DNA of 27,274 bases from a virus, in IMG/VR virus record IMGVR_UViG_3300025127_000208, positions 1 through 27,274 of that record. One strand, given 5' to 3'. Made by a program: the position numbers and the translations under genes. This document shows positions 4,600 through 27,274 of the stretch, in pieces. The notes beneath the pieces are model-generated. The model ran no database searches, was not told where the DNA came from, and saw only the letters and a list, made by a program, of their open reading frames with translations. How positions within the stretch are numbered: the stretch's first letter is position 1; every line of letters starts with the position of its first letter.

Positions 4600-4627
4600 G
4601 GGGGAGTCTATATGGCTCCCCTTTTTT
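4600..4627 (+). terminator. Rho-independent terminator for the plus-strand early operon
   Basis: GGGGAGTC (4601-4608) pairs with GGCTCCCC (4614-4621), with one G-T wobble, around a TATAT loop, and six T residues follow (4622-4627). This is a GC-rich stem in very AT-rich DNA with a proper T-tract, pointing in the plus direction, 30 bases after the last early gene. The T-tract overlaps the stop codon of the minus-strand lysin gene (4626-4628). Confidence 0.88.
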
Positions 4628-5198
4628 ATTGTAGGTTATTCATTTGATCCGCTATAGGTTTTCTCCTAGGAATCAATACATTTTCTGTTTCTATTATTGG
4701 TTTAATTCTATCATTATATACATTTGCTAAAAAACTTGGATAGTCTGTTCTTTCTGCGTATGGACTCATACCTTTAAACATATCTTCTACTTTTTCTGTA
4801 GATTCCATAACACTTTTATATCTGTCATCTGTAGTGATTAAAGATAAAAAAGATCTTATACTAGCTTTACTGTCAGGAAAACTAGCTATATTAACACCAC
4901 CTGTAGTAGTAACAAAATCTTGATCACCTATTGGTTTCATTCCAAAATAATTATTACCTTTTTTAGCTGTTGGTGCACCTTTAAATTCAAAATTACCAGT
5001 CTCTGCAGCAGCTACTGTAGCGATAAATCCTGTAGGTACTTTTCTTTCAATAGAATCCTCAGGATATTCCTGACGAACCTCTTCTATTGCTTTCATAAAA
5101 TCTTTTGTATTTTTTATCTCAGCCATAGTAATACTACATATAATTAAACTAGCAATTCCAAGCCCTAAGAGCTTTATTAATTCTTGAATTTGGATCAT
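4626..5198 (-). CDS. Bax/glucosaminidase-like lysin with N-terminal membrane segment
   Basis: This 190-residue protein has a hydrophobic stretch at about residues 8-26 (LIKLLGLGIASLIICSITMA) followed by a domain of the Bax/endo-beta-N-acetylglucosaminidase type. The catalytic glutamate is probably E66 in AAAETGN, followed by the family's NNYFGMK (82-88) and a later repeat-like FPDSKASIRSFLSLI. Such enzymes cut the glycan strands of peptidoglycan. The weakly hydrophobic, Gly/Ala/Ser/Thr-containing segment resembles a signal-anchor-release or signal sequence, so the enzyme could reach the periplasm through the host Sec system without a holin. Start 5198 overlaps the preceding gene by 50 bases; a shorter start at 5126 would give a 166-residue cytoplasmic form. 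Neither start has a clear ribosome site. It is the last gene of the minus-strand operon. Confidence 0.75.
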   Translation of the reverse strand: MIQIQELIKLLGLGIASLIICSITMAEIKNTKDFMKAIEEVRQEYPEDSIERKVPTGFIATVAAAETGNFEFKGAPTAKKGNNYFGMKPIGDQDFVTTTGGVNIASFPDSKASIRSFLSLITTDDRYKSVMESTEKVEDMFKGMSPYAERTDYPSFLANVYNDRIKPIIETENVLIPRRKPIADQMNNLQ

Positions 5199-8695: not shown

Positions 8696-9081
8696 TATTT
8701 TTTTCCGTTACGGAATATCTGTGTACCTTTAATACCAAAAATACTAGCAACAACTAAAATCCAAAGATTGGTAAACCAACTTGGAAGTGTTGAAAAGTAT
8801 TCAAAAAATAATTTTACTTTATTCATTGCCTCGGGGTCATCACTTATGACTGCCCAAGCAAGTACAACGATAGGAGCCGAGAGAATAAGCAAAACGAATT
8901 CGTCTTTCCAGTCCGATTGTCGTGCCTCTAAAAGTTTACCCTGATAAGCCTCCTCACCCCTAGCCATCTTTTCTGCATGCATAAGCTGTGCATCTGACAT
9001 AGCCATCTTTGTTTTCTGTCGGTTGGAATAAATTTTACTTCCAGCCTGTAATGCTATTTTTGCTAAACTAAACCAAGCCAT
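8695..9081 (-). CDS. Two-helix holin-like membrane protein
   Basis: This 128-residue protein has an amphipathic N-terminus (MAWFSLAKIALQAGSKIYSN), a charged helix and two membrane segments at about residues 61-80 (FVLLILSAPIVVLAWAVI) and 99-117 (PSWFTNLWILVVASIFGI), ending in a basic tail (FRNGKK). Two membrane helices with a basic C-terminus next to an amidase gene is the classical holin arrangement: such proteins permeabilise the inner membrane and release the lysin. The start overlaps the amidase gene by 14 bases. A tail or head membrane protein is the alternative reading. Confidence 0.68.
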   Translation of the reverse strand: MAWFSLAKIALQAGSKIYSNRQKTKMAMSDAQLMHAEKMARGEEAYQGKLLEARQSDWKDEFVLLILSAPIVVLAWAVISDDPEAMNKVKLFFEYFSTLPSWFTNLWILVVASIFGIKGTQIFRNGKK

Positions 9082-9496
9082 TTTTTTCTAACCATCCTGG
9101 CACATCAAATGATGGACATTCTTTCTTGTCATCAACTTGATAGTGTCCTATAATTTTTTCTATATTATATTTATCTTTTAACTTTAATAATATACTTTTT
9201 AATGTTTCAAACTGTACAGGTGTAAAATTATTTTCCCAACCCATACTTGGTGTGCCTCCTCCGACTAATGCTACACCTATTGATGTACCATTAACCTGTA
9301 CCGCATGTGCACCTGTAACATCTTCATCTCTTCCGACTTGTAGTGTGCCATCTCGTTTAATTAGATAGTGATATCCGATTGTATCGAAACCTCTATCTTT
9401 GTGCCATTGTGTAACTTTCTCTACATCAATATCCATATCTGCTGGAGTTTGTGTACAGTGTATTACTATTGTATCAGTTGTCTCTCTTTTGTCCAT
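9068..9496 (-). CDS. T7-lysozyme-like N-acetylmuramoyl-L-alanine amidase
   Basis: This 142-residue protein is a single amidase_2 domain, close in length to T7 lysozyme (151 residues). The zinc ligands are probably H13 (in IVIHCTQT), H118 (in IIGHYQV) and C127 (in KKECPSFD). Y42 or Y44 in GYHYLI and K125 occupy the catalytic Tyr and Lys positions. It cuts the amide bond between muramic acid and the peptide stem, opening the cell wall at lysis. In T7 the homologue also inhibits the phage RNA polymerase; no such polymerase is in this window. There is no signal peptide, so export would depend on the neighbouring holin-like proteins. Confidence 0.92.
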   Translation of the reverse strand: MDKRETTDTIVIHCTQTPADMDIDVEKVTQWHKDRGFDTIGYHYLIKRDGTLQVGRDEDVTGAHAVQVNGTSIGVALVGGGTPSMGWENNFTPVQFETLKSILLKLKDKYNIEKIIGHYQVDDKKECPSFDVPGWLEKNGLV

Positions 9497-17068: not shown

Positions 17069-17193
17069 TATCTCCCCTGTCTATTATATTTTTTAAACAT
17101 TCGTTTCTCTGATTTATTTTTATTTTTCTTATGTACTCTTGGTCTCTTTTTAGGTTTAGGTCTTTCAACAAAATCTTTAAACCTACGAGCCAT
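17068..17193 (-). CDS. 41-aa very basic protein
   Basis: A 41-residue frame starts at ATG 17193 and ends in a TAA at 17070-17068 that overlaps the next ATG. The product begins MARRFKDFVERPKPKKRPRV and continues HKKNKNKSEKRMFKKYNRQGR. About half of it is Lys or Arg. The 'KRPR.HKK..NKSEKR..KKY..QGR' pattern is one I associate with conserved small phage proteins. One-base overlaps with both neighbours confirm a coupled gene. It is probably nucleic-acid-binding. Confidence 0.75.
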   Translation of the reverse strand: MARRFKDFVERPKPKKRPRVHKKNKNKSEKRMFKKYNRQGR

Positions 17194-17480
17194 TATGGTT
17201 TAGTTGGGAACGTAGCATTATTACATTTCTCAACAGTGTCCTTACCCTCAGGCAGGTCTCTTAACTCCTGTCTGTATGTTCTCATGTCATCCGACATAGT
17301 AACATCAGATAAAGCATAGAAGTCAGTCTCAGCTAATAGTTGATTTCTTCTAGATCTAAGACTAGCCTGTGCTCTTCCTAAAGCACCAGCTTCCCAAGCA
17401 GCCTCTTCGGCATCTCTAGCAGCCTCTTCTGCAGCTGTGAACTGCACTCTTTCACCATTTATGTTATGATATCTTGGCAT
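17193..17480 (-). CDS. Tail-fibre-assembly / chaperone-like protein
   Basis: This 95-residue acidic, helical protein begins MPRYHNINGERVQFTAAEEA. It contains RNQLLAETDFYALSDVTMS followed by MRTYRQELRDLPEG. The 'R..LLA.TD...L.D.......YRQ.LRDLP' pattern is typical of small phage tail-fibre-assembly or tail-assembly-chaperone proteins that accompany fibre genes. It directly follows the second triplet of fibre-like genes. The ribosome site AAGGAG lies 6-7 bases before ATG 17480. Confidence 0.72.
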   Translation of the reverse strand: MPRYHNINGERVQFTAAEEAARDAEEAAWEAGALGRAQASLRSRRNQLLAETDFYALSDVTMSDDMRTYRQELRDLPEGKDTVEKCNNATFPTKP

Positions 17481-17509
17481 TGTTTCTCCTTTATTTTTGT
17501 TTATTATTA

Positions 17510-18124
17510 TTAATTAATTCCGTAAAGGCAAATATCTCCAGCATCTATGTTGCCTGAAGTCATTTTAAACTGCACCGCATCTATTGCACTTGTTGTATTC
17601 ATATATCCACCTACATTTACTTCTTGTGTATAATCTCCTGAATATGCATTACCTCTTGATATAAAATGTTTTACAAATGTTGTAGAACTTGGATTAAATA
17701 AGTGTAAATATCCACTACCACATTCATCATTTGCATTTCCTGAAGCAACTATTAGAGGTTGAAAAGATGTTGATTGTGCTAAATCCTCTGATGCATAATA
17801 TCCTACACCTTGTCCACCAGCATTTTCTGCTTGATAAGAATAAAATGCTGTTGTTGTTTTTGTAACATTATAGTTTGAACCAGAATCTGTTGAACCATTA
17901 AAGGTAAGTTTGGTATTATCAGTGGCTGGATGAATATTATTAAATGTAAATAAATATTCTTTATAAGTATTATCTAATACAACATCACTAGAGCCATCGA
18001 CAAAAGATAAGGTTGCAGAACTAGAGGCTGTTAATTTTTTAATAAAAGTCATAGCACCACTACTAAGACTACCAAATGCAGTTACCGATCTAACCCCTCT
18101 ATTATTTAGTTTAACTATGCTCAT
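17510..18124 (-). CDS. Fibre-like paralogue, subtype 3, short N-terminus (block II)
   Basis: This 204-residue protein is one of six paralogues. It has a short N-terminus of about 23 residues (MSIVKLNNRGVRSVTAF...GAM), then the common domain, here opening with MTFIKKLTASSSA, continuing with VVLDNTYKEYLFTFNNIHPA, FNPSSTTFVKHF and NTTSAIDAVQFK, and closing with LYGIN. The marks MTFIKKLTASSS, NNIHPATD and the LYGIN end pair it with the protein at 20615-21271. The beta-rich, Ser/Thr/Asn-rich composition fits a receptor-binding tip or fibre module. Start overlaps the preceding stop (TAATG). Confidence 0.72.
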   Translation of the reverse strand: MSIVKLNNRGVRSVTAFGSLSSGAMTFIKKLTASSSATLSFVDGSSDVVLDNTYKEYLFTFNNIHPATDNTKLTFNGSTDSGSNYNVTKTTTAFYSYQAENAGGQGVGYYASEDLAQSTSFQPLIVASGNANDECGSGYLHLFNPSSTTFVKHFISRGNAYSGDYTQEVNVGGYMNTTSAIDAVQFKMTSGNIDAGDICLYGIN

Positions 18125-18762
18125 TAACTATCCTTTATTCCATAGAGCTTTATTGTACCAGCATCTATGTTACCAGCACCACCAGTTCCCTCTGTGCATT
18201 TAAATTGTATAGCATCAATTGCTGACGTTGTATTAAAATATCCAGAAGTTTTAAATATTACAGAATTATTACCACTATTGTAAATTTGCATATTAGACAT
18301 AAAGTGTTTTACAAATGTGGTACTACTTGGATTAAATAAAAGTAACTCACCTGATGTAGACTGATCATTATCATTTCCTAAATCATCTACAATATCTTGA
18401 AAAGATGTGCTTTGTGCTTCATCTCTTGATGTGCTATAAGTTAATGAAGTTGAAGAACCTCCTTCATCGTGATACGCTAAATGAACTGCAGAGGTAAGAG
18501 TCACACCATAAGAACTTCCAGTATTTGTAGACCCTTGAAATCCTACTTTTACATCATCGTTAGACGGATGAATATTTATAAGTTTAAACATATAAATAGG
18601 ATATGTGCTATCCAAGACCACGTCTGAACTACCATCTACAAAAGATATTGTTGAATCAGAACTAGCCGTTATGGTTTTAATTAATGTCATTGCACCAGCA
18701 GGAAAATTAGGAGCACTTGTCACACTACTTAAACTGTTATTATTATATTTAACTAACGCCAT
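18124..18762 (-). CDS. Fibre-like paralogue, subtype 2, short N-terminus (block II)
   Basis: This 212-residue paralogue has the short N-terminus MALVKYNNNSLSSVTSAP followed by GAMTLIKTITASS. Subtype marks are TYPIYMFKL in place of the KEY form, GELLLFNPSSTTFVKHF and the final YGIKDS. These match the protein at 21271-21924. The C-terminal part contains an insertion, EGTGGAG, before GNIDAGTIKLYG. It overlaps the preceding gene by 14 bases. A role in host recognition is inferred from its position among fibre genes. Confidence 0.72.
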   Translation of the reverse strand: MALVKYNNNSLSSVTSAPNFPAGAMTLIKTITASSDSTISFVDGSSDVVLDSTYPIYMFKLINIHPSNDDVKVGFQGSTNTGSSYGVTLTSAVHLAYHDEGGSSTSLTYSTSRDEAQSTSFQDIVDDLGNDNDQSTSGELLLFNPSSTTFVKHFMSNMQIYNSGNNSVIFKTSGYFNTTSAIDAIQFKCTEGTGGAGNIDAGTIKLYGIKDS

Positions 18763-19360
18763 ACATTTTTATTGTTCCTGAATCTATATTGCCACTAGAC
18801 ATTTTAAACTGCACCGCATCAACTGCACTTGTAGTGTTTCCATATCCAGCAATATATGAATTCATTTGAAAATCAGATGTTGAATTAAAATTTGTTGTTG
18901 CTATATAATGTTTTACAAAAGTTGTATTGCTAGGATCAAATAAATGTAAAGTTCCCGATAAAGATTCATCATTTTCAATTCCTAAAGAACTTAAAACAGT
19001 TAATTTTTGAAATGCTGTAGATTGTGCTAAATCTTGAACAGTTCCATAACTTACTGCTGATTCAACACCATTTTCACCATGATAAGCTGCAAATGTAGAA
19101 GATGTTTTAGTAACATTATAATTTGAACCACTATCTGCACTTAAATTAAAATCAAATGAAACAGAATCAGTACTTGGGTGTATATTTATAAACTTAAATA
19201 TATACTCTTTATAAGTAGAGTCTATCCCTGAAGTAAAATCTATTGTAGATGAACTACTAGCAGTTTGAGTAGAGATAAGAACTAATGATCCCCCACCGAC
19301 ACCACTGGGTAGACTTGTGATTGCCGACATAGAGTTATTATTGCACACATTAATTGACAT
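18749..19360 (-). CDS. Fibre-like paralogue, subtype 1, short N-terminus (block II)
   Basis: This 203-residue paralogue starts MSINVCNNNSMSAITSLPSG, with SLVLISTQTASSSS, and lacks the VDGSSDVVLD insert found in subtypes 2 and 3 (it reads FTSGIDSTYKEY). SADSGSNYNVTKT and the MYGVS end match the protein at 21924-22577. An AAGGAG site lies about eight bases before ATG 19360. It opens the second triplet, directly after the chaperone-like 111-aa gene. Confidence 0.72.
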   Translation of the reverse strand: MSINVCNNNSMSAITSLPSGVGGGSLVLISTQTASSSSTIDFTSGIDSTYKEYIFKFINIHPSTDSVSFDFNLSADSGSNYNVTKTSSTFAAYHGENGVESAVSYGTVQDLAQSTAFQKLTVLSSLGIENDESLSGTLHLFDPSNTTFVKHYIATTNFNSTSDFQMNSYIAGYGNTTSAVDAVQFKMSSGNIDSGTIKMYGVS

Positions 19361-19363
19361 GTG

Positions 19364-19699
19364 CTACTCCTTTGGATTATCTGATCTTACTTTATCACAA
19401 TGATCTTTAAATGTTGATGTGCCATTTTTTTGATCTTTATAAATCATTTCTATTTGCTCTTGCCATGATCCATACTGAGATCGCCTAGTTTCATCTATAC
19501 CATCATTTGTTTCAGCAGTGTTACCTGCAGTTTCATAAGACGCTAGTTGAGAATCTGTTGGTTTTGTGATATCAAGATTCCATTCTTTAATATATGGACC
19601 ATCCCCAATATCTTCTAGTATAACATCTTTTAAAAAATCTATATTTGAAACACCATTTGCTTCTGCATATAATTCTATTTTTTTACTTAACTGTGCCAT
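19364..19699 (-). CDS. Tail-assembly-chaperone-like protein
   Basis: This 111-residue, acidic, helical protein contains PTDSQLASYETAGN and then ETRRSQYGSWQEQIEMIYKD followed by KNGTSTFKDHCDKVRSDNP. The 'RR..Y.S..EQ..MIY.D.KNGT..F.D....VR...P' pattern is common in small phage proteins encoded beside tail-fibre genes, which are thought to assist fibre assembly. AGGAG lies eight bases before ATG 19699. It sits between the C1q-like fibre and the second triplet of fibre paralogues. Confidence 0.75.
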   Translation of the reverse strand: MAQLSKKIELYAEANGVSNIDFLKDVILEDIGDGPYIKEWNLDITKPTDSQLASYETAGNTAETNDGIDETRRSQYGSWQEQIEMIYKDQKNGTSTFKDHCDKVRSDNPKE

Positions 19700-19700
19700 A

Positions 19701-20606
19701 TTATGCTCCTATTATTCTAAATCCACCAAAATGTGTTTCATGATTTGCACTTCCATCACCTGTAACACTAACACTTGAACCACCTTTATTATTATAATAA
19801 AATACCTCAAAATAATCGTCTGTATCAGAATCTACCATACAGTAAATTGAATTTGTATCATAAGATGTATTTGGTGTACCTGTGTGTGCAATAGCACTTC
19901 CATTCTTTCTAATTTGAAGAAAAGAACCAGTGTAACTAGTACTTGAGTTTGGTCTTAGCTGTGCATATAAAAAATATTTACCAGCAACTCCTGGTGTAAA
20001 TCTGTAATTAGATGAACTATCAAAAGCATTATCACTATCAAAAGTTTCACCATTAAAATTTATTTTTACATAAGTTACATTTGCACAATTTTGATTATTT
20101 GCTAAATATGCTTGAAAGGCTGGAGTATTAACACCACCAACACCAGATAAGAAATTTGACCTAGTCATTTTTCTTAACGCACTAGCAGAGTCATCATGAA
20201 TTATGATAGTATCAGCGTCAGCAGCAGAAGTTTCTGCAGTTTGTCCTGTGATTGCTGTTACATCTAGATGCTCATCAGATACAGCATCGTCAGCTATTTT
20301 AGCGGCTGTTACAGTATCATCTGAAGGTACACCCAGGTCGAGCACATTACCTAATATTTGAACGAAGTCGATAACGTCACCTGTCGCTAGATTACTAGCA
20401 AAGGTCATAGTAGAACCAGAGATAGTGAATGAACTACCTGGTTTTTGTAAAATACCATTTAAACTAACCAACATATGATTAGCTGATTCTGGTGCAACGT
20501 TAACACCCCCTACCTGTAGGGTGTAAGCTGCCTGTCCGTTTACGACTGATATCGCATCACAGACTTGAAAGTTTCCCACAGTGGGTGTTTTTCCTATATA
20601 GGGCAT
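19701..20606 (-). CDS. Tail fibre with C1q-like C-terminal domain
   Basis: This 301-residue protein begins MPYIGKTPTVGNFQVCDAIS, the fibre N-terminus also used by the 326-aa protein at 22588. The middle contains a repeated ADDAVSDEHLDV-type linker and an ILGNVLDLGVP hinge. The last 140 residues run NTPAFQAYLANNQ, then RFTPGVAGKYFLYAQL, and finish HFGGFRIIGA, which is the layout of C1q/TNF-like jelly-roll domains that trimerise and often bind ligands. It is probably a receptor-binding or fibre-tip protein. A strong AAGGAGG stands four bases before ATG 20606. Confidence 0.8.
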   Translation of the reverse strand: MPYIGKTPTVGNFQVCDAISVVNGQAAYTLQVGGVNVAPESANHMLVSLNGILQKPGSSFTISGSTMTFASNLATGDVIDFVQILGNVLDLGVPSDDTVTAAKIADDAVSDEHLDVTAITGQTAETSAADADTIIIHDDSASALRKMTRSNFLSGVGGVNTPAFQAYLANNQNCANVTYVKINFNGETFDSDNAFDSSSNYRFTPGVAGKYFLYAQLRPNSSTSYTGSFLQIRKNGSAIAHTGTPNTSYDTNSIYCMVDSDTDDYFEVFYYNNKGGSSVSVTGDGSANHETHFGGFRIIGA

Positions 20607-20614
20607 GTTCCTCC

Positions 20615-21271
20615 TTAATTAATTCCGTATAATGTTATTGTTCCAGCATCTATATTGCCTGTATTAAATTTAAATTGTACTGCATCTATCGCAGCTGTTA
20701 CATTACAATATCCTGCAACATATATATCAAAAGAAAAATCTGCATCAGTCATCTGTTGAGTTCTTGCTATAAAATGTTTTACAAATGTTGTAGAGGATGG
20801 ATTAAACAAATGTAGAAAACCACCCAAACAAGCATCATTTTCATTTGCTAACGATTGAGATAAATATTGAAAACCAGTTCCATTTGCTAAATCATAACTA
20901 GTATTATGAGCAAGTTGTGTATCTGAATTTCCCTCATCGTGTCTTGATTGGAAATAAGTTGTTGTTTTTGAAGCATCATAATCTGTGCTACCATCTCTAA
21001 AACCTACACTAAAAAATGCACCATCAGTGGCTGGGTGTATATTATTAAAATGAAATATATATTCTTTATAAGTATTGTCTAATACAACATTACTAGACCC
21101 ATCTACAAAACTTAATGTACCACTGGAACTAGCAGTAAGTTTTTTAATAAAAGTCATAGCACCACCTGCAGATCCAGTCTCGAATCCATTAGCACTGCTA
21201 TTAAATTTTAGTGCTTCATTAGCAGCAGGTGTAACATTTATACTATTAAATTTTAATTTATTAAGTGCCAT
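20615..21271 (-). CDS. Fibre-like paralogue, subtype 3, long N-terminus (block I)
   Basis: The 218-residue product has the long N-terminus MALNKLKFNSINVTPAANEA, then KFNSSANGFETG, followed by the subtype-3 marks MTFIKKLTASSSG, VVLDNTYKEYIFHFNNIHPA and the LYGIN end. These match the protein at 17510-18124. The middle loop (YDASKTTTYFQSRHDEG) is the most divergent part, which is where a receptor contact would be expected. Overlap with the preceding gene is TAATG. Confidence 0.72.
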   Translation of the reverse strand: MALNKLKFNSINVTPAANEALKFNSSANGFETGSAGGAMTFIKKLTASSSGTLSFVDGSSNVVLDNTYKEYIFHFNNIHPATDGAFFSVGFRDGSTDYDASKTTTYFQSRHDEGNSDTQLAHNTSYDLANGTGFQYLSQSLANENDACLGGFLHLFNPSSTTFVKHFIARTQQMTDADFSFDIYVAGYCNVTAAIDAVQFKFNTGNIDAGTITLYGIN

Positions 21272-21924
21272 TAGCTATCACTTATCCCATAGAGTTTTAT
21301 CGTACCTGAATCTATATTACCAGTGCTCATTGAAAATTGTATTGCATCAATAGCAGATGTGGTATTAAAATATCCAGCGGTATAACTATTAACAGATTGA
21401 GCATTAGAACCATTAGCAGTTGCTATATAATGTTTTACAAATGTGGTAGAAGACGGATTAAAAATATATAACTCTCCAGAACCACTACTATCATTGTCTG
21501 TTGCTAGTGTACCAATTAAGCCTTGTGTTCCTGTTCCTTGTGCAAGATCTTGATAAACATTATAAGACAGTGCAGTTGAACTATCATCTTCTTTGTTAAG
21601 AGCATAAAATGAACTTGATGTTTTTGCAACATTATAATTGCTACCAGTATCAATAGAACCATTAAAAGCTAATGTACTAGCAGCTGATGGGTGACAGTTA
21701 ATATATTTAAATAAATAAACAGGATATGTATTATCTAGAACAACATCTGAACTTCCATGCACAAATGACAATGTAGAACTAGAACTAGCAGTTAGAGTTT
21801 TAATTAATGTCATGGAACCAGGATTAATAGTAGAAAAACCATTAGCACTGGCATTAAATCCAAGTCCTTTACTTGCAGCTGATGTTACATCAAAACTATT
21901 AAAATTAAATTTTGTAAGTGCCAT
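21271..21924 (-). CDS. Fibre-like paralogue, subtype 2, long N-terminus (block I)
   Basis: The 217-residue product opens MALTKFNFNSFDVTSAASKG, then GFNASANGFSTINPG. Subtype-2 marks are MTLIKTLTASSSS, TYPVYLFKYINCHPS, SGELYIFNPSSTTF and the end YGISDS, matching 18124-18762. The domain has the shared FNPSSTTFVKHYIA and NTTSAIDAIQF elements. It is coupled to both neighbours by TAATG overlaps. Confidence 0.72.
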   Translation of the reverse strand: MALTKFNFNSFDVTSAASKGLGFNASANGFSTINPGSMTLIKTLTASSSSTLSFVHGSSDVVLDNTYPVYLFKYINCHPSAASTLAFNGSIDTGSNYNVAKTSSSFYALNKEDDSSTALSYNVYQDLAQGTGTQGLIGTLATDNDSSGSGELYIFNPSSTTFVKHYIATANGSNAQSVNSYTAGYFNTTSAIDAIQFSMSTGNIDSGTIKLYGISDS

Positions 21925-22577
21925 TATGTAACTCCATACATTTTTATTGTTCCTGAGTCTATGTTGCCTGATGAAAATTTAAACTGTATAGCATCAATAG
22001 CAGAAGTTGTATTAAAATACCCAGCTATATAATTAACAGTTACATTTGGATCAGATGTTGAATTAGTTGTTTGAGCATTAATCATAAAATGCTTTACAAA
22101 AGTTGTAGAACTAGGATTAAATAATCTAACAGTTGCAACTAAACAATCATCATTATTGTTAGCTGAAGAACCAGATGTAAAATTTTGAAATCCTGTTCCT
22201 TGAGCTATATCGCTTCCTGTATCATAACCAAATCCTGTACTACCATCATCTTCTTCATGGTATGCTTGAAAAAAAGAAGTTGTTTTTGTTACATTGTAAT
22301 TACTACCACTATCTGCACTTCCATTAAATTGAAAAGATACTGCATTGTTAGAAGGGTGAATATCTATAAACTTAAAAACATATTCTTTATAAGTAGAATC
22401 TATACCACTTGTAAAAGAAATTGCAGAACTACTACTAGCAGTCTGCTCTGATATTAATACCATAGCACCACCAACGTCTCCTGCCTCTAATCCATTATTA
22501 TTAGAATTAAATTTAACTACTTTACTAGCAGTTGGTGTTAAGTTTAAGCTATTGAAGTTAACCTTAGAGAGTGCCAT
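21924..22577 (-). CDS. Fibre-like paralogue, subtype 1, long N-terminus (block I)
   Basis: The 217-residue product opens MALSKVNFNSLNLTPTASKV, then KFNSNNNGLEAGDVGG. Subtype-1 marks are MVLISEQTASSSS, FTSGIDSTYKEYVFKF, SADSGSNYNVTKT and the end MYGVT, matching 18749-19360. It is the first of the triplet and carries the strong ribosome site of the group (AGGAG in a small hairpin loop, 22583-22587). Confidence 0.72.
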   Translation of the reverse strand: MALSKVNFNSLNLTPTASKVVKFNSNNNGLEAGDVGGAMVLISEQTASSSSAISFTSGIDSTYKEYVFKFIDIHPSNNAVSFQFNGSADSGSNYNVTKTTSFFQAYHEEDDGSTGFGYDTGSDIAQGTGFQNFTSGSSANNNDDCLVATVRLFNPSSTTFVKHFMINAQTTNSTSDPNVTVNYIAGYFNTTSAIDAIQFKFSSGNIDSGTIKMYGVT

Positions 22578-22592
22578 GGGTTACTCCTTAAC
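22578..22592 (-). promoter_or_regulatory. Ribosome site in the loop of a small hairpin
   Basis: On the minus strand GGTTA-AGGAG-TAACC lies at 22593-22579, two bases before ATG 22577. The five bases on each side pair (GGUUA with UAACC) and hold the Shine-Dalgarno AGGAG in the loop. The TAA stop of the preceding fibre gene is in the left arm. It could present or modulate the ribosome site of the first triplet gene. The stem is only five pairs, so the effect may be slight. Confidence 0.35.
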
Positions 22593-23568
22593 CTTTTAAT
22601 CCTATTAATGTAAATTCGCCTTCTTCAATATTTCCTGTGTGCATCGATATCCTAATACCATCATGTGCTTCAGGAGACGCATAAACACCACCACCTATTT
22701 GATTGTTGACTTGATCTTCTGTATTACCACTTCCATCTATTGCTTGTGATAATAATTGAGCAGTTGTATTTAAACTTGAATCTGACATATTATAAAAAGT
22801 CATTTCGGCATTTGATCTTTGGTCACTTGCATTTTGAGTTCCTCCTGTTCCCACTAATATATTAGTTGTAGAGTTAGTTCTTGAAGTTCCACCACTATAA
22901 TATGATCTAAAAACTTCTGCTAAATATCCTGATGTTCTAAAAGTGCCACTATTTGATACTCGCACAGCTAGAACAGCACCATTGGTGCTTGGTCGCCAAG
23001 TAAAAAGAACTTTATAGTATCTATAAGTTGAATCAATAACAACACCACCAGTGCCATGTACAAAATCAACACTTGAAGTTGCTGAAGTAACATTTGTATG
23101 TGCAATTTTAGTCCAATCTCCACCTTTAATGTAACTATAATCAACTCTTTTAAGAACACCTGCATCTGATATAAGTAATTCGTCTGTGTCTGCAGGTTCA
23201 GCTCCTAAAGCAGTTTGTGCTGAAATAACATCGGTATTTAATTTTGCACCTGTAATTGCATCATCAGAAATCATAGCGGATGTAATACTATTGGTTGCAG
23301 GATTTACAGTTTGTAATGCTCTACCTAGAAATACACAATACATTGTATCTGTCGAAGCCGTGGCCGCAGATAGTGTCAACGCTGTGCCTGTAGCAGTATA
23401 TGCTTTACCAGATCCAGGTTGTTGTCTTACATTATTAATAAATAATGCTATCTCATTTTCATTTGTTACTGCATGATTTAGAGTGTAGGAGGTAGTTGCA
23501 CTCGTAGAAAACTCCTGCGTAGCAAAAGAAGTAAATGATTCTGAAGGTTGATTTCCAATATATGGCAT
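22588..23568 (-). CDS. Tail fibre with N-terminal MPYIG module and a seventh copy of the fibre-like domain
   Basis: The 326-residue product begins MPYIGNQPSESFTSFATQEF and has an ALFINNVRQQPGS-type fibre body (residues 1-120) and an AEPADTDELLISDAGVL linker. Its C-terminal domain of about 170 residues starts WTKIAHTNVTSATSSVDF and ends TGNIEEGEFTLIGLKG. This domain parallels the six smaller paralogues (VDFVHGTGGVVIDSTYRYY against FVHGSSDVVLDNTYPVY). It is thus a fibre fused to the same domain the paralogues carry alone. Confidence 0.75.
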   Translation of the reverse strand: MPYIGNQPSESFTSFATQEFSTSATTSYTLNHAVTNENEIALFINNVRQQPGSGKAYTATGTALTLSAATASTDTMYCVFLGRALQTVNPATNSITSAMISDDAITGAKLNTDVISAQTALGAEPADTDELLISDAGVLKRVDYSYIKGGDWTKIAHTNVTSATSSVDFVHGTGGVVIDSTYRYYKVLFTWRPSTNGAVLAVRVSNSGTFRTSGYLAEVFRSYYSGGTSRTNSTTNILVGTGGTQNASDQRSNAEMTFYNMSDSSLNTTAQLLSQAIDGSGNTEDQVNNQIGGGVYASPEAHDGIRISMHTGNIEEGEFTLIGLKG

Positions 23569-23569
23569 C

Positions 23570-23935
23570 TTATGTGATCTCCATTATTGACAATGTGCCT
23601 GATAGTTTATCTGCAACTGAACAATCTATTTGAATTTTATCTCCAGCTTCAAGAACTACTTTACCACCAGATAATATTTCAAGCGAACTGCCTGTTGGTA
23701 TACTTACATCTTTAATTAAAAATGATGTACCATTTGCAACATTATTAGCACCACCTCTGCTTGATGTTGTACTAACAAGTTCTACCTCTGCAGTGACTGC
23801 AGTTGTATTTATGTTAGACAATACCAATCCAAGCACAACTGCTGTTGTACTAGATGCTACTGTATACATTACATATGGCGTTCCAGCTGAAGCAGGTTCT
23901 GCTGCAAAGGTTACTACCTTAAAAGTATTTGCCAT
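23570..23935 (-). CDS. 121-aa beta-rich virion protein
   Basis: This 121-residue protein begins MANTFKVVTFAAEPASAGTP and is made of alternating beta-strand stretches (YVMYTVASSTTAVVLGLVLS, then SLEILSGGKVVLEAGDKIQI) ending LSGTLSIMEIT. The composition and position before the fibre genes are typical of small virion or tail-decoration proteins in marine phages. It is the first gene downstream of the minus-strand promoter at 23961-23988 and has an AGGAGG site six bases before its start. Confidence 0.7.
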   Translation of the reverse strand: MANTFKVVTFAAEPASAGTPYVMYTVASSTTAVVLGLVLSNINTTAVTAEVELVSTTSSRGGANNVANGTSFLIKDVSIPTGSSLEILSGGKVVLEAGDKIQIDCSVADKLSGTLSIMEIT

Positions 23936-23994: not shown

Positions 23995-25800
23995 TTATCC
24001 TAAAGCTATAGCTAAAGCTGTAGGATCATCTGTACTAAATCCTGCACTAGATAGATAGGTTTTAACATCTGTTAATGCTACCTGTTTCATAGTACCATTA
24101 TCGTTTGTGACTACTCTATCAGCATCTACTAAAGTTGTAGAACTAGCTGATGTATCACCATCCATTATGTTTAATTCACTAGCCGTAGATGTAACACCAT
24201 CTAAAATGTTTAATTCATCTGTCGTAACTGTCGCACCATCTAATATCTCTAATTCTGCTTCAGATATACCTGCAGATCCAATAGTTACTGTTCCTGCAAA
24301 AGTTACATTAGCACCACTAAATGTCATAGCAGTTGTAGGTGTAGATCCTGATTTAATTACAAGTTCTCCACTAGAATTTGTTAAACTACCAAAAGTCGTA
24401 CCATCATCTTTAAGTGTGACATCTGCCCCACCTGCATCTAAAACTATATCTGTAGTTGCATCTAACGTAATAGTAGATCCTGAATCTATTTCTGTGATTA
24501 CAGGTGTAGTTAAAGTTTTATTAGTTAATGTAGCAGTTGAAGATGTTGATACTAATCTAGCATCTCCACCAGTGCTTGGTAGGGTTAAAACATTATTAGC
24601 ACTTTCTGAGTGTGGTGCAGCTACTATTTGCTGACCATGAGAATTATTTTCACAATTAAGCTGAAGAGTACCTTGATTAGTATTACCTTTAATAGTTACA
24701 TGCCCTGTACCATTTGGTGCTAATTCAATATCTGCATTTGATGTAGTAACAATATCTTGACCATTCATATCAAGATTACCACCTAATTGTGGTGTAGTGT
24801 CTTCAACTACATTTGATATCGCACCTGATGTAGCTAACCCTGCAACTACTGCTGATCTTGCAATCTTTTTAAGACCACCACCAGAAGTATCAACTGCTAA
24901 GAATACATCATCATTAGCAACTGTAGATATCTCTGATAATGAACCTACTGCTACAGAATTAAAATTTGTACCATCTGCAATTAATAAATTACCTGCAGTA
25001 TTAGTGCCCATGATAATATCATCGCCAGTTACTGTAAGATCTCCGCCAACAACTACATCACTATTAAATGTTGCTTTACCTGCTTCACTACCATCAATAG
25101 TTAAAAAAGTTGTATCTGATCCACCATCAGTTCCTTTTAAAATAATATCTGTATCACTACCCTGTGCATCTATTGTAATATTACCTGCACTAGTTTCTAA
25201 ACTAATAGCTGCATCACCTGTAGAAATATCATCTGCTGCTATAGCTGCTGCTGTAACACCAGTTTGAAAATATGTTTTAAATGTAGCGGCACTTGTAACT
25301 CGCATAGTACCACCATCATTATGTATAATACCATCGCCATCAACTACTGCTGTAGTTCCAACTGTAGCACCACCATCTATTAGATTAATCTCTGCACCTG
25401 TAGCTGTAATAGCTGTACCATCTAAACTTAGTGTGTCTATATTAGCTGTGCCATCTATAAATAAATCTTTAAACTCAAGAGAGGAAGTTCCTAAGTCTAT
25501 ATCATTATCTGTTACAGGTACGATAGCACCATCTTGTATTTTAACTTGCTCTACTGCAGCGGAAGATACTTCTACATAAAATTCTAAATGATTATTAGTT
25601 GTGTCTACTAATATTTTATTATTACTATCAGCATCTCTAAGAGTGCTAATAGGTCCACCTTCACCCGCAGTACCATCATGCGAGTGCCCTGTAGTTGCGT
25701 GAAATGCAGCCAATACTTGGTTAAACTCATCATTAGAATGAGCTGCAAGTATAGTATCACCTGTAGTGAAACTTGACTGTCGTGCTGAATAACCTGCCAT
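23995..25800 (-). CDS. Repeat-bearing tail fibre protein
   Basis: The 601-residue product begins MAGYSARQSSFTTGDTILAA and has a histidine motif TGHSHDGTAGEGG (38-49), a feature of marine phage fibre N-termini. The body is a Thr/Asp/Gly-rich, beta-repetitive fibre. Near the end three adjacent ELxILDG repeats of about 13 residues occur (about 525-555). A module of about 40 residues, E(I/L)N..DG..T....VD.D...ND.GTM....KTY, occurs twice, at about 137-177 and 542-582. No enzymatic or lectin domain is visible. The stop is just before the promoter at 23988. Confidence 0.75.
   Translation of the reverse strand: MAGYSARQSSFTTGDTILAAHSNDEFNQVLAAFHATTGHSHDGTAGEGGPISTLRDADSNNKILVDTTNNHLEFYVEVSSAAVEQVKIQDGAIVPVTDNDIDLGTSSLEFKDLFIDGTANIDTLSLDGTAITATGAEINLIDGGATVGTTAVVDGDGIIHNDGGTMRVTSAATFKTYFQTGVTAAAIAADDISTGDAAISLETSAGNITIDAQGSDTDIILKGTDGGSDTTFLTIDGSEAGKATFNSDVVVGGDLTVTGDDIIMGTNTAGNLLIADGTNFNSVAVGSLSEISTVANDDVFLAVDTSGGGLKKIARSAVVAGLATSGAISNVVEDTTPQLGGNLDMNGQDIVTTSNADIELAPNGTGHVTIKGNTNQGTLQLNCENNSHGQQIVAAPHSESANNVLTLPSTGGDARLVSTSSTATLTNKTLTTPVITEIDSGSTITLDATTDIVLDAGGADVTLKDDGTTFGSLTNSSGELVIKSGSTPTTAMTFSGANVTFAGTVTIGSAGISEAELEILDGATVTTDELNILDGVTSTASELNIMDGDTSASSTTLVDADRVVTNDNGTMKQVALTDVKTYLSSAGFSTDDPTALAIALG
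24055..24230 (-). repeat. Tandem ELNILDG repeats in the fibre gene
   Basis: Coding repeats for three consecutive copies of about 13 residues around ELxILDGxT in the last fifth of the 601-aa fibre, ending in the second copy of the VNDNGTM module. Similar short repeats form beta-spiral or trimeric shafts in other fibres, and they are common sites of length change by recombination. Confidence 0.6.
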
Positions 25801-27274
25801 TATCTTCTTCCTCCTGGGGTAAATTCTAATTGAAATCCTTTAACTGAAAATGAGTCTGCACTATTTTGATCATCTATCTGTAGTGCTACTGCAAATCCAG
25901 ATCCTTCTACTGTTTGTCTTACTAATGGAACACCTGAGGCATCATACAATGAACTGCCATAACTTGCTGCTCCATATTGTCCAGCACCACCTACACTAGG
26001 CAATGCTATCTTTTCTGGTTGTGGACTATTCTGGTCATCATAATTATATCTAAGAGCTAAGTTTGCATCAATAGATGTTCCCTCACCTTCATAGTTTAGA
26101 TTAACTCTTTGCATGTATTTTCTAATACCTGGATCTCCCATTACCATATCTGGTGATCTATACACTGCTTGAATAGTAGTTGTAGTTGATCCTGTTGCAA
26201 AAGTATTACCAGTTTCCATTTTATAGATGAATCCATCATAACCACCAAATACTTGTGTTTCAACAGCACTAATAAAATCTGAATCTGTGCATGCTGGTTT
26301 AATACCTACCATATCTGCATATTCAAATCCAATAGATCTAGTATTTGGATTATTTTTTAATACACCTATAATTCCTTTTGATGATAGTTGTCCTCTTGCT
26401 GTAACTGGATAAAATAATCTATATTGTGATTTATCTCTTATAACTAAAGAACTTATTCTATCTAATGTTATATCATCAATTCTAGATTGTATCTGTCTAG
26501 ATATAGATCCTAGTTCAACGTCACCAATTCTTGCCGTACCTGCGATAGTTCTTAAACCATCAGGTGCTAAAAATATAACATCACCACCAATCTCTTGAAT
26601 ACTACCACCATCTCTACATCCAATATTTCTTGTAACTTCTTGCACTGCAAATGTACTAGATGATGTTCCCGTTAGTTTATATATTCTATCTTCGCAGAAT
26701 ATAATTAATTCATTCCTAAATACTTTTAATCCAACAACAGTAGAGTCAACTTTAAATGAACCTGCACCACTAGCAGTCGTAAAATTATCCTCTTCAAATG
26801 GTACACTAAATATAACTTCTTGTGAATTAGTTGCACCAGCATAAAACATATGATTTTGAAATGCTTTTACAAATTTAGGATTGCTTGGAGCTGTACCACC
26901 ACCTGTTGCATTTACAACATCAACTGCAAAACTAGAATTAATTATCTGTGCGGGTGAGTGTCCTGTAGCAATAACTAATTTATCCGTACCATTAAAATTA
27001 AATTTTTCAAAGTCATATGCTCTAGTGGATGTACCTAATCCAGTTGTTAGAGTTGTAAAACTACCTGATGTAGTTCCTCTATGAATGTCACCACCTCTAG
27101 CAGCTATAATCTGACCATTAAATATTATAGAACAATCAACAGTTAAGCTACTATTACTAGATCCCTGTGGCACTATAGTGCTATTATATAATGCTGTTCC
27201 ACTAACACGTCTATATCCACCTTTTATATCAGGTTCAAAGTTTTGTAGTATAAGAGCTTCACCAGGAGACATAG
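25800..27274 (-). CDS. Tail nozzle / stabilisation-like protein, N-terminus beyond the window
   Basis: The frame is open to the right edge, so the first Met at 27272 is probably internal; the start MSPGEALILQNFEPDIKGGY has the form of an interior 'SPGEAL.L.NF.PD..GGYR...G' element of such proteins. At least 490 residues remain. The middle has repeated beta-blade-like strands (FVKAFQNHMFYAG, LIIFCEDRIYKLTG, GGDVIFLAPDGLRTI), suggesting a beta-propeller like that of podovirus nozzle or stabilisation proteins. The C-terminus is beta-rich and ends FTPGGRR. It overlaps the fibre gene start by one base. Confidence 0.65.
   Translation of the reverse strand, partial: MSPGEALILQNFEPDIKGGYRRVSGTALYNSTIVPQGSSNSSLTVDCSIIFNGQIIAARGGDIHRGTTSGSFTTLTTGLGTSTRAYDFEKFNFNGTDKLVIATGHSPAQIINSSFAVDVVNATGGGTAPSNPKFVKAFQNHMFYAGATNSQEVIFSVPFEEDNFTTASGAGSFKVDSTVVGLKVFRNELIIFCEDRIYKLTGTSSSTFAVQEVTRNIGCRDGGSIQEIGGDVIFLAPDGLRTIAGTARIGDVELGSISRQIQSRIDDITLDRISSLVIRDKSQYRLFYPVTARGQLSSKGIIGVLKNNPNTRSIGFEYADMVGIKPACTDSDFISAVETQVFGGYDGFIYKMETGNTFATGSTTTTIQAVYRSPDMVMGDPGIRKYMQRVNLNYEGEGTSIDANLALRYNYDDQNSPQPEKIALPSVGGAGQYGAASYGSSLYDASGVPLVRQTVEGSGFAVALQIDDQNSADSFSVKGFQLEFTPGGRR

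Follow-up and report, generated by a model that had tools for sequence, protein, structure and literature searches.

We analyzed the window, by which we mean the whole 27,274-base virus record and which is possibly a fragment of a genome, around an open reading frame encoding a 326-aa protein with an N-terminal MPYIG module (Table 1). A short linker (residues ~87-148) joins this module to the C-terminal domain. PHROGs assigned residues 154-325 to phrog_14820 (E 3.4e-10, profile positions 27-206 of 206), a family listed there as of unknown function, and residues 20-132 to phrog_21412, annotated as a tail fiber protein (E 5.3e-10). The 326-aa protein matched 17 phage records, 13 of which aligned from residue 1.

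Table 1. Genes and domains in the region of the window studied
Feature	Coordinates	Strand	Evidence or remark
326-aa MPYIG protein, C-terminal phrog_14820 domain	22588..23568	minus	ORF, ATG start, PHROGs, hhalign and family search
N-terminal MPYIG anchor module, residues 1-~86	23311..23568	minus	phrog_21412 and phage-record matches
C-terminal beta-sandwich domain (predicted), residues 149-326	22591..23124	minus	phrog_14820, hhalign, model
Triad 1 position a, 217 aa, tag MALSKVNFNS	21924..22577	minus	phrog_14820 E 1.7e-71
Triad 1 position b, 217 aa, tag MALTKFNFNS	21271..21924	minus	phrog_14820 E 4.5e-74; 1-base overlap
Triad 1 position c, 218 aa, tag MALNKLKFNS	20615..21271	minus	phrog_14820 E 2.4e-77; 1-base overlap
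Second MPYIG protein, 301 aa, unrelated C-terminal domain	19701..20606	minus	phrog_18673 tail fiber protein
XkdW-family protein, 111 aa	19364..19699	minus	PF09636 E 2.7e-13, above curated cut-off
Triad 2 position a, 203 aa, tag MSINVCNNNS	18749..19360	minus	phrog_14820 E 1e-83
Triad 2 position b, 212 aa, tag MALVKYNNNS	18124..18762	minus	phrog_14820 E 1.3e-81; overlaps a by 14 bases
Triad 2 position c, 204 aa, tag MSIVKLNNRG	17510..18124	minus	phrog_14820 E 1.9e-89; 1-base overlap
Phage tail assembly chaperone-like protein, 95 aa	17193..17480	minus	PF16778 Phage_tail_APC E 2e-10, above curated cut-off
121-aa protein directly upstream of the 326-aa gene	23570..23935	minus	phrog_1276 E 1.5e-10
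Candidate main tail fibre, 601 aa	23995..25800	minus	upstream of the putative adhesin module

The earlier note had claimed that a domain found in six stand-alone proteins of the window occurs a seventh time at the end of the MPYIG protein, which it took for a long fibre with a shaft. A profile made from the six stand-alone copies matched residues 149-325 of the 326-aa protein by hhalign (probability 96.0, E 3.8e-9, 172 columns, 24% identity), and the motifs quoted in the note are present in the open reading frame. The same comparison with the second MPYIG protein (19701-20606) gave a probability of 1.3, indicating that the MPYIG anchor alone does not yield a match; that protein was accordingly rejected as an eighth copy. 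A family search located phrog_14820-type domains at exactly seven places in the whole record, so the seventh copy was confirmed, and the presence of seven copies in the window is well beyond chance. The long-fibre reading had to be dropped, since just ~60 residues lie between anchor and tip. Pfam and NCBIfam yielded no family above cut-off for the phrog_14820-type domain; weak matches to TgMIC1 (Pfam, E 0.0027, for 18124-18762) and DUF4766 (E 0.004, for 21924-22577) are leads only. Among PDB sequences the 326-aa protein had no matches other than weak ones of its residues 2-92 to antibodies (E 0.008 and worse), which were judged to be due to chance.

We compared structure models of the fused and stand-alone domains. 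The model of the stand-alone protein encoded at 17510-18124 (minus its first residue, 64 sequences) had a pLDDT of 90.2, a pTM of 0.84 and thirteen strands, with the first ~20 residues of the monomer at pLDDT 55-59 and without a strand. The model of the 326-aa protein (18 sequences) had an overall pLDDT of 67.5; by ten-residue blocks this was 83-94 in residues 151-210, 85-92 in 301-326 and 47-82, low to middling confidence, in 211-300. Ten strands of the fused model (152-160, 166-170, 184-193, 198-206, 215-224, 252-259, 272-279, 287-296, 304-311 and 314-324) line up in order with strands of the stand-alone model (24-32, 37-41, 55-65, 70-77, 88-98, 134-142, 151-161, 164-174, 182-187 and 192-202), and three middle strands are absent from the fused model. 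The closest solved structures also agreed. The C-terminal sandwiches of GH32 enzymes gave the best Z of 8.2 for the fused model, its best to any chain, and of 7.9 for the stand-alone model; endo-inulinase 3sc7 aligned with Z 8.1, rmsd 3.3 over 123 residues (fused) and Z 7.9, 3.2 over 125 (stand-alone). Galectins followed at Z 6.3-6.8 (fused) and 6.2-7.2 (stand-alone) among the best 50 matches listed, below the level that the tool calls clear, and galectin-8 N-CRD aligned with Z 6.8, rmsd 3.3 over 120 residues and Z 7.0, 3.1 over 119, respectively. Overall, the fused domain (~150-326) matched sandwiches of the galectin, GH32 and legume-lectin type at Z 6.3-8.2. Z scores this low may reflect merely a common strand arrangement, and a galectin-like predicted fold does not show sugar binding.

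Thus the two forms of the domain have the same predicted fold in good agreement, and the differing folds that the earlier note named as evidence against its claim were not seen. The agreement is not fully independent, since the scores are in the middle range and stand-alone copies make up 7 of the 18 rows in the alignment behind the fused model. Among predicted viral structures the fused model had 142 matches at E <= 0.001; most of those listed were unnamed or uncharacterised phage proteins, and a small number bore the label tail fiber or side tail fibre. A Foldseek search of the PDB with the stand-alone model returned no match at E <= 0.001, and the stand-alone profile matched no PDB chain sequence at E <= 1.

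The six stand-alone proteins (phrog_14820 in PHROGs, E 1.9e-89 to 1.7e-71) are encoded by two sets of three consecutive genes, at 22577-20615 and 19360-17510, which we refer to as triads with positions a, b and c. The second MPYIG gene stands between the two triads, a point absent from the earlier note, and residues 1-217 of its product belong to the tail fiber protein family given in Table 1 (E 2.1e-54). A C1q-like label for its C-terminus was discarded, as the c1q-labelled protein of phage Lederberg aligned with the N-terminal module only. In HTVC010P, the gene in place of that at 17193..17480, after the triad, is labelled tail fiber assembly in RefSeq. The 121-aa protein upstream of the 326-aa gene has a 116-aa look-alike, judged by eye, in the same place in contig L015 (5479-5829). 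PHROGs and Pfam/NCBIfam searches found no N-terminal module common to annotated tail fibres in the stand-alone copies. Together with their short tags and galectin-like predicted fold, this lack of a recognised tail-anchor domain would suit proteins that decorate the capsid or are secreted to bind glycans, leaving the fused form alone on the tail. We consider this highly unlikely, because the genes lie inside a tail-fibre block and are flanked by tail-assembly chaperone-like, XkdW-like and MxYIG tail-fibre-type genes.

The nearest annotated phages were pelagiphages, which makes SAR11 the probable host. HTVC033P was 88.7% identical over 1.8 kb across tail genes (window 25436-27266). The start of the 601-aa gene falls in this stretch, the two genes of which are annotated in HTVC033P as a putative tail fiber and a putative tail structure protein. 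HTVC033P (L010, 6660-13022) is without the adhesin module of window 17193-23568 and has other genes at that site, namely a putative ferrochelatase, two 2OG-Fe(II) oxygenase family proteins and two long hypothetical proteins; the flanking gene order looks similar by gene sizes. The adhesin module seems to be a swappable block. Elsewhere in the window, possible cell-wall enzymes are encoded at 4626-5198 (an amidase, PF01510, E 1.2e-20) and at 9068-9496 (glucosaminidase-like by eye only).

We then surveyed related phages for the number of stand-alone copies per run. The first survey covered 88 sources (the best 80 loci, L015, L016, four isolate records, one spring-water record and the window) and contained 60 uncut runs, with three copies in 56, six in three and one in a single case; 40 more runs lay at an edge. 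After two more scans there were 160 uncut runs, 139 of them distinct, with three copies in 130, six in 7 and one in 2. The single-copy run of L081 proved to be a MAYIG fusion with its start placed at a TTG. With this misclassified fusion removed, three or six copies were present in 137 of 138 distinct uncut runs, in loci chosen as the best matches (best 80 per scan) to the window or L071 copies, a choice that under-samples divergent single-copy phages. A further 128 of the 288 runs lay less than 400 bases from a locus end and were left uncounted; their copy numbers, from one to seven, are those expected of truncated runs. Neighbouring genes were spaced by -1 base in 139 of 191 pairs and by -14 bases in 33, overlaps that are expected for coupled translation.

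The real exception to the triad rule was Lederberg EXVC029P, which has a single diverged stand-alone copy. A scan with that copy brought up two contigs, one (L242) with an ordinary triad and the other (L241) with three diverged copies up to the contig edge. Five loci came from cellular genome assemblies; like L241 and L242, these (L236-L240) are excluded from the 138 runs. Three of the five (L236, L237 and L239) carried triads, and L240 had a fused copy. In L238, a Roseovarius MAG contig, there were two copies, and the phage-like sequence abruptly meets a gene inside position b; we read this case as an assembly join, the joined gene looking chromosomal by eye. The fused copy of L240 (1977-4274, binned as a Bathyarchaeota MAG) ends a long protein, and the contig may be that of a virus binned with an archaeon. 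In Manatee Spring podovirus ct7QV12 (L012, 4497-5513), from spring water, the domain is fused to a non-MPYIG N-terminus, so it reaches beyond marine pelagiphages.

The triads fell into five tag families, of 83, 31, 11, 9 and 4 members, and within every family the three tags differ from one another. In the 50 triads of the family of window triad 2, information on position lay towards the two ends, in columns up to ~78 at the N-terminus and in the final ten, and any block of ten columns in between had at most 0.12 bit per column. We call the N-terminal tag, the first strands and the last strand the frame, and the strands between them the body. We compared frames and bodies in 138 non-redundant triads (414 copies, <90% identical) out of 144. 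The nearest neighbour in another locus occupied the same position in 93% of cases for the tag, 96% for the first strands and 89% for the last strand but in 52% for the body, with a label-shuffle null of 33-34%. On trees, position labels changed 13 times for the frame (mean 196 with labels permuted within triads) and 153 times for the body (mean 195), the latter count being inflated since body trees are poorly resolved. The body thus retains some position signal (52% against 33%; 153 against 195 changes).

Because of this poor resolution, direct pairs of bodies carry more weight. Different positions were involved in 14 of the 41 body pairs that come from different contigs and have an identity of 80% or above. 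At the DNA level, the bodies of L123 b and L117 a were 97.6% identical over 510 bp, and those of L032 b and HTVC034P a were 91.1% identical over 471 bp with first strands just 46% identical. The body of window triad-1 c was 96-97% identical to copies in L167, L062 and L174 that carry the tag of the other family, MSIIKLNNRG, and the body of window triad-1 b was 97% identical to an L179 copy bearing a position-a tag. Between the window and L016, which has the same module, tags and first strands at the same position were 71-90% identical and bodies 42-52%; for five of the six positions the body was matched better by another L016 copy. Bodies have therefore been exchanged between positions, families and contigs. 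Two side observations concern cysteines: position c is nearly the only one to carry a cysteine in the last strand (45 of 50 triads, including window 17510-18124), and the position a tag has Cys or Ala, a possible inter-chain contact.

We also looked for complementary features within triads. A proline at frame column 54, after 'TY' in the third strand, was present in exactly one copy in 117 of 138 triads (shuffle mean 60.7, maximum 79); 20 triads had no such copy and one (L123) had two. The Pro copy was at b in the two commonest families (78/83 and 28/31) and at a in another (10/11), and the two smallest families mostly had none (2/13 have one). The larger families thus keep one of each and not a fixed order. 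With unsupervised classes of the frame, 91 of the 138 triads had one copy from each class (null 26, maximum 39); with the same clustering of bodies, 16 had (null 15). The 47 triads missed by the frame classes are mainly explained by one cluster that takes 206 of the 414 copies and includes nearly all copies of two smaller families; that the figure of 91 was not higher is partly due to two families lying mostly in one cluster (8/9 and 10/11 triads). In L179, outside the 138 triads, b-type strands occur at position a. In the KYD tag family (L040, L046, L077 and L230), the frame order looks reversed by eye (c-, b- and a-like) in three of four, and L230 differs.

These patterns bear on whether a triad encodes one complex or three. 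Phage fibres are usually homotrimers, and a, b and c could form three homotrimers at different sites or stacked on one axis, the frame serving as the address and the body as the binding face. Position-specific tags would serve equally as addresses of sites, and the sequence pattern left by three homotrimers, each at its own attachment site, would be almost identical. This is the main rival to a heterotrimer, and we judge it rather doubtful, since it leaves unexplained the near-absence of uncut runs with one, two, four or five copies, the occurrence of five unlike tag families all in threes, and the maintenance of one of each although the place of the Pro copy differs by family. A need for three different receptors would be expected to make the bodies, not the frames, position-specific. 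Since bodies circulate between positions, it is the frame and not the body that would have to be kept three-fold, as a heterotrimer would demand.

The relation of triads to MxYIG genes was assessed in single-triad runs with such a gene upstream. The triad-2 family was accompanied by the GNFQVCDA class in 61 runs plus one variant, and the triad-1 family by the ESFTSFA class in 16 plus three variants; no crossed pairing was seen among single-triad runs of these two main classes. The counts refer to clear rows only and leave out seven six-copy runs, six unclassified runs and a few false or other labels. Within 1.5 kb upstream, an MxYIG gene was not found in 37 of 137 runs, 14 of them with a locus extending further. 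RefSeq gives the label tail fiber protein to the MxYIG genes of both HTVC010P and HTVC019P.

The earlier note had further suggested that the stand-alone copies bind to or replace the fused tip as interchangeable caps and so vary host range. Its premise stands, as the domain does occur both in six stand-alone proteins and in the 326-aa fusion, with the same family and predicted fold, and most triads in the two main families have an MxYIG gene upstream. The bodies do not fit such a replacement. A survey of 229 sources yielded 32 fused domains, some of them near-duplicates, the bodies of which were at most 48% identical to any stand-alone body, except for one pair whose partner is, by gene order, itself a fused copy truncated by the end of its contig. 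The best value for the 326-aa protein of the window was 30%, while stand-alone bodies 80-98% identical to each other occur at different positions of different contigs. With no recently exchanged body between fused tips and stand-alone copies, replacement is without support. Moreover, the window's other MPYIG protein is accompanied by a triad even though its tip is unrelated. We therefore give the cap reading hardly any credence; triads beside a matching MxYIG protein, as in the two main families, make better sense as components that belong together than as spare copies. The fused tip itself had a close relative (80% identity) in L015 on another, shorter MAYIG N-terminus, and the start of L016 falls within a copy that is 94% identical to the final 64 residues of the 326-aa protein and is followed by the same module. 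The L015 and L016 copies, with the body identities, indicate that the fused tip moves between anchors and has no bodies in common with the stand-alone copies.

We propose, giving it slightly better than an even chance, that the module encodes one fused homotrimeric adhesin and, from the triads, two 1:1:1 heterotrimeric adhesins with fixed frames and exchangeable bodies. The 326-aa protein would serve a pelagiphage-like podovirus as a short tail-appendage adhesin, probably a homotrimer and fixed to the virion by its MPYIG module, with the short linker leading to a galectin-like beta-sandwich tip. The six stand-alone copies would be subunits of two further adhesins, the three consecutive overlapping genes a, b and c most likely giving one heterotrimer, and each triad class of the window travels with its own MxYIG class. 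Within a chain, the frame would decide its place in the trimer and the body would carry the binding face. Recombination moves bodies from one position, triad family or phage to another and leaves the frames in place, so that recognition could change without disturbing assembly. The N- and C-terminal strands of galectin-1 make its dimer interface, which fits a role for the first and last strands in holding the assembly information. Receptor or glycan binding, location on the virion, and homo- and heterotrimerisation are what we infer from sequence comparisons and models.

Among cultured pelagiphages, HTVC010P, HTVC019P and HTVC034P each have one three-copy phrog_14820 set in the tail region, deposited as hypothetical proteins; their copies are up to 67, 61 and 50% identical, respectively, to position c of window triad 2. 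These phages have one triad, whereas the window has two of different tag families and the fused form, and their records make no mention of triads, frames or heterotrimers. A three-gene heterotrimer is described for mycobacteriophage Mysterious, in which gp35, gp36 and gp37 are beta-sandwich proteins with an N-terminal beta-hairpin arm docking on the tail (cryo-EM preprint, Res Sq 2026, PMC13252515). As in Mysterious, the triads are three consecutive genes for proteins of similar size, one copy of which was modelled as a beta-sandwich; the likeness is one of gene layout and predicted fold, as known from our sequences and monomer models. The Mysterious proteins are on the baseplate, and the available part of the preprint reports neither tandem families across phages nor body exchange (PMC13252515). 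The heterotrimeric part of Anabaena phage A-1(L) was rejected as a precedent, being, in the part of the source available, a baseplate wedge and not a fibre (PMC10966104).

Variability of pelagiphage receptor-binding proteins is itself already published. Metaviromic islands of HTVC010P-like phages contain C1q-domain receptor-binding proteins (Mizuno et al. 2014, PMC3909814), the genes of which adjoin the tail fibre; their N-terminus is better conserved and the binding domain variable, and XkdW and tail-fibre assembly genes are listed (PMC3909814). The C1q proteins are single proteins, and the accessible portion of that paper mentions neither triads of genes nor bodies exchanged among paralogues. 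Polarivirus skadi is likewise reported to have a hypervariable region that includes a structural protein with a lectin domain (PMC10504331, as far as its available text goes). In the open-access literature, as far as its text was available, we found no pelagiphage description of triads, of a split into frame and body, or of body exchange.

The usual picture of a phage tip is a homotrimer that varies at one end. A strict three-gene set in which assembly frames are fixed and bodies move freely would, if true, be a different way to diversify recognition. Pelagiphages in culture (HTVC010P, HTVC019P and HTVC034P) have the three-gene set, and the heterotrimer reading directly predicts a 1:1:1 complex. 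It would also give meaning to marine phage genes deposited only as hypothetical proteins. We regard as evenly balanced the wider proposal that many SAR11-type phages carry an obligate heterotrimeric adhesin made of three tandem paralogues, the frames settling the place of each chain, with three different, independently replaceable faces reshuffled combinatorially by recombination. If true, host recognition in this very abundant group of marine viruses would be diversified in a manner resembling antigenic variation.
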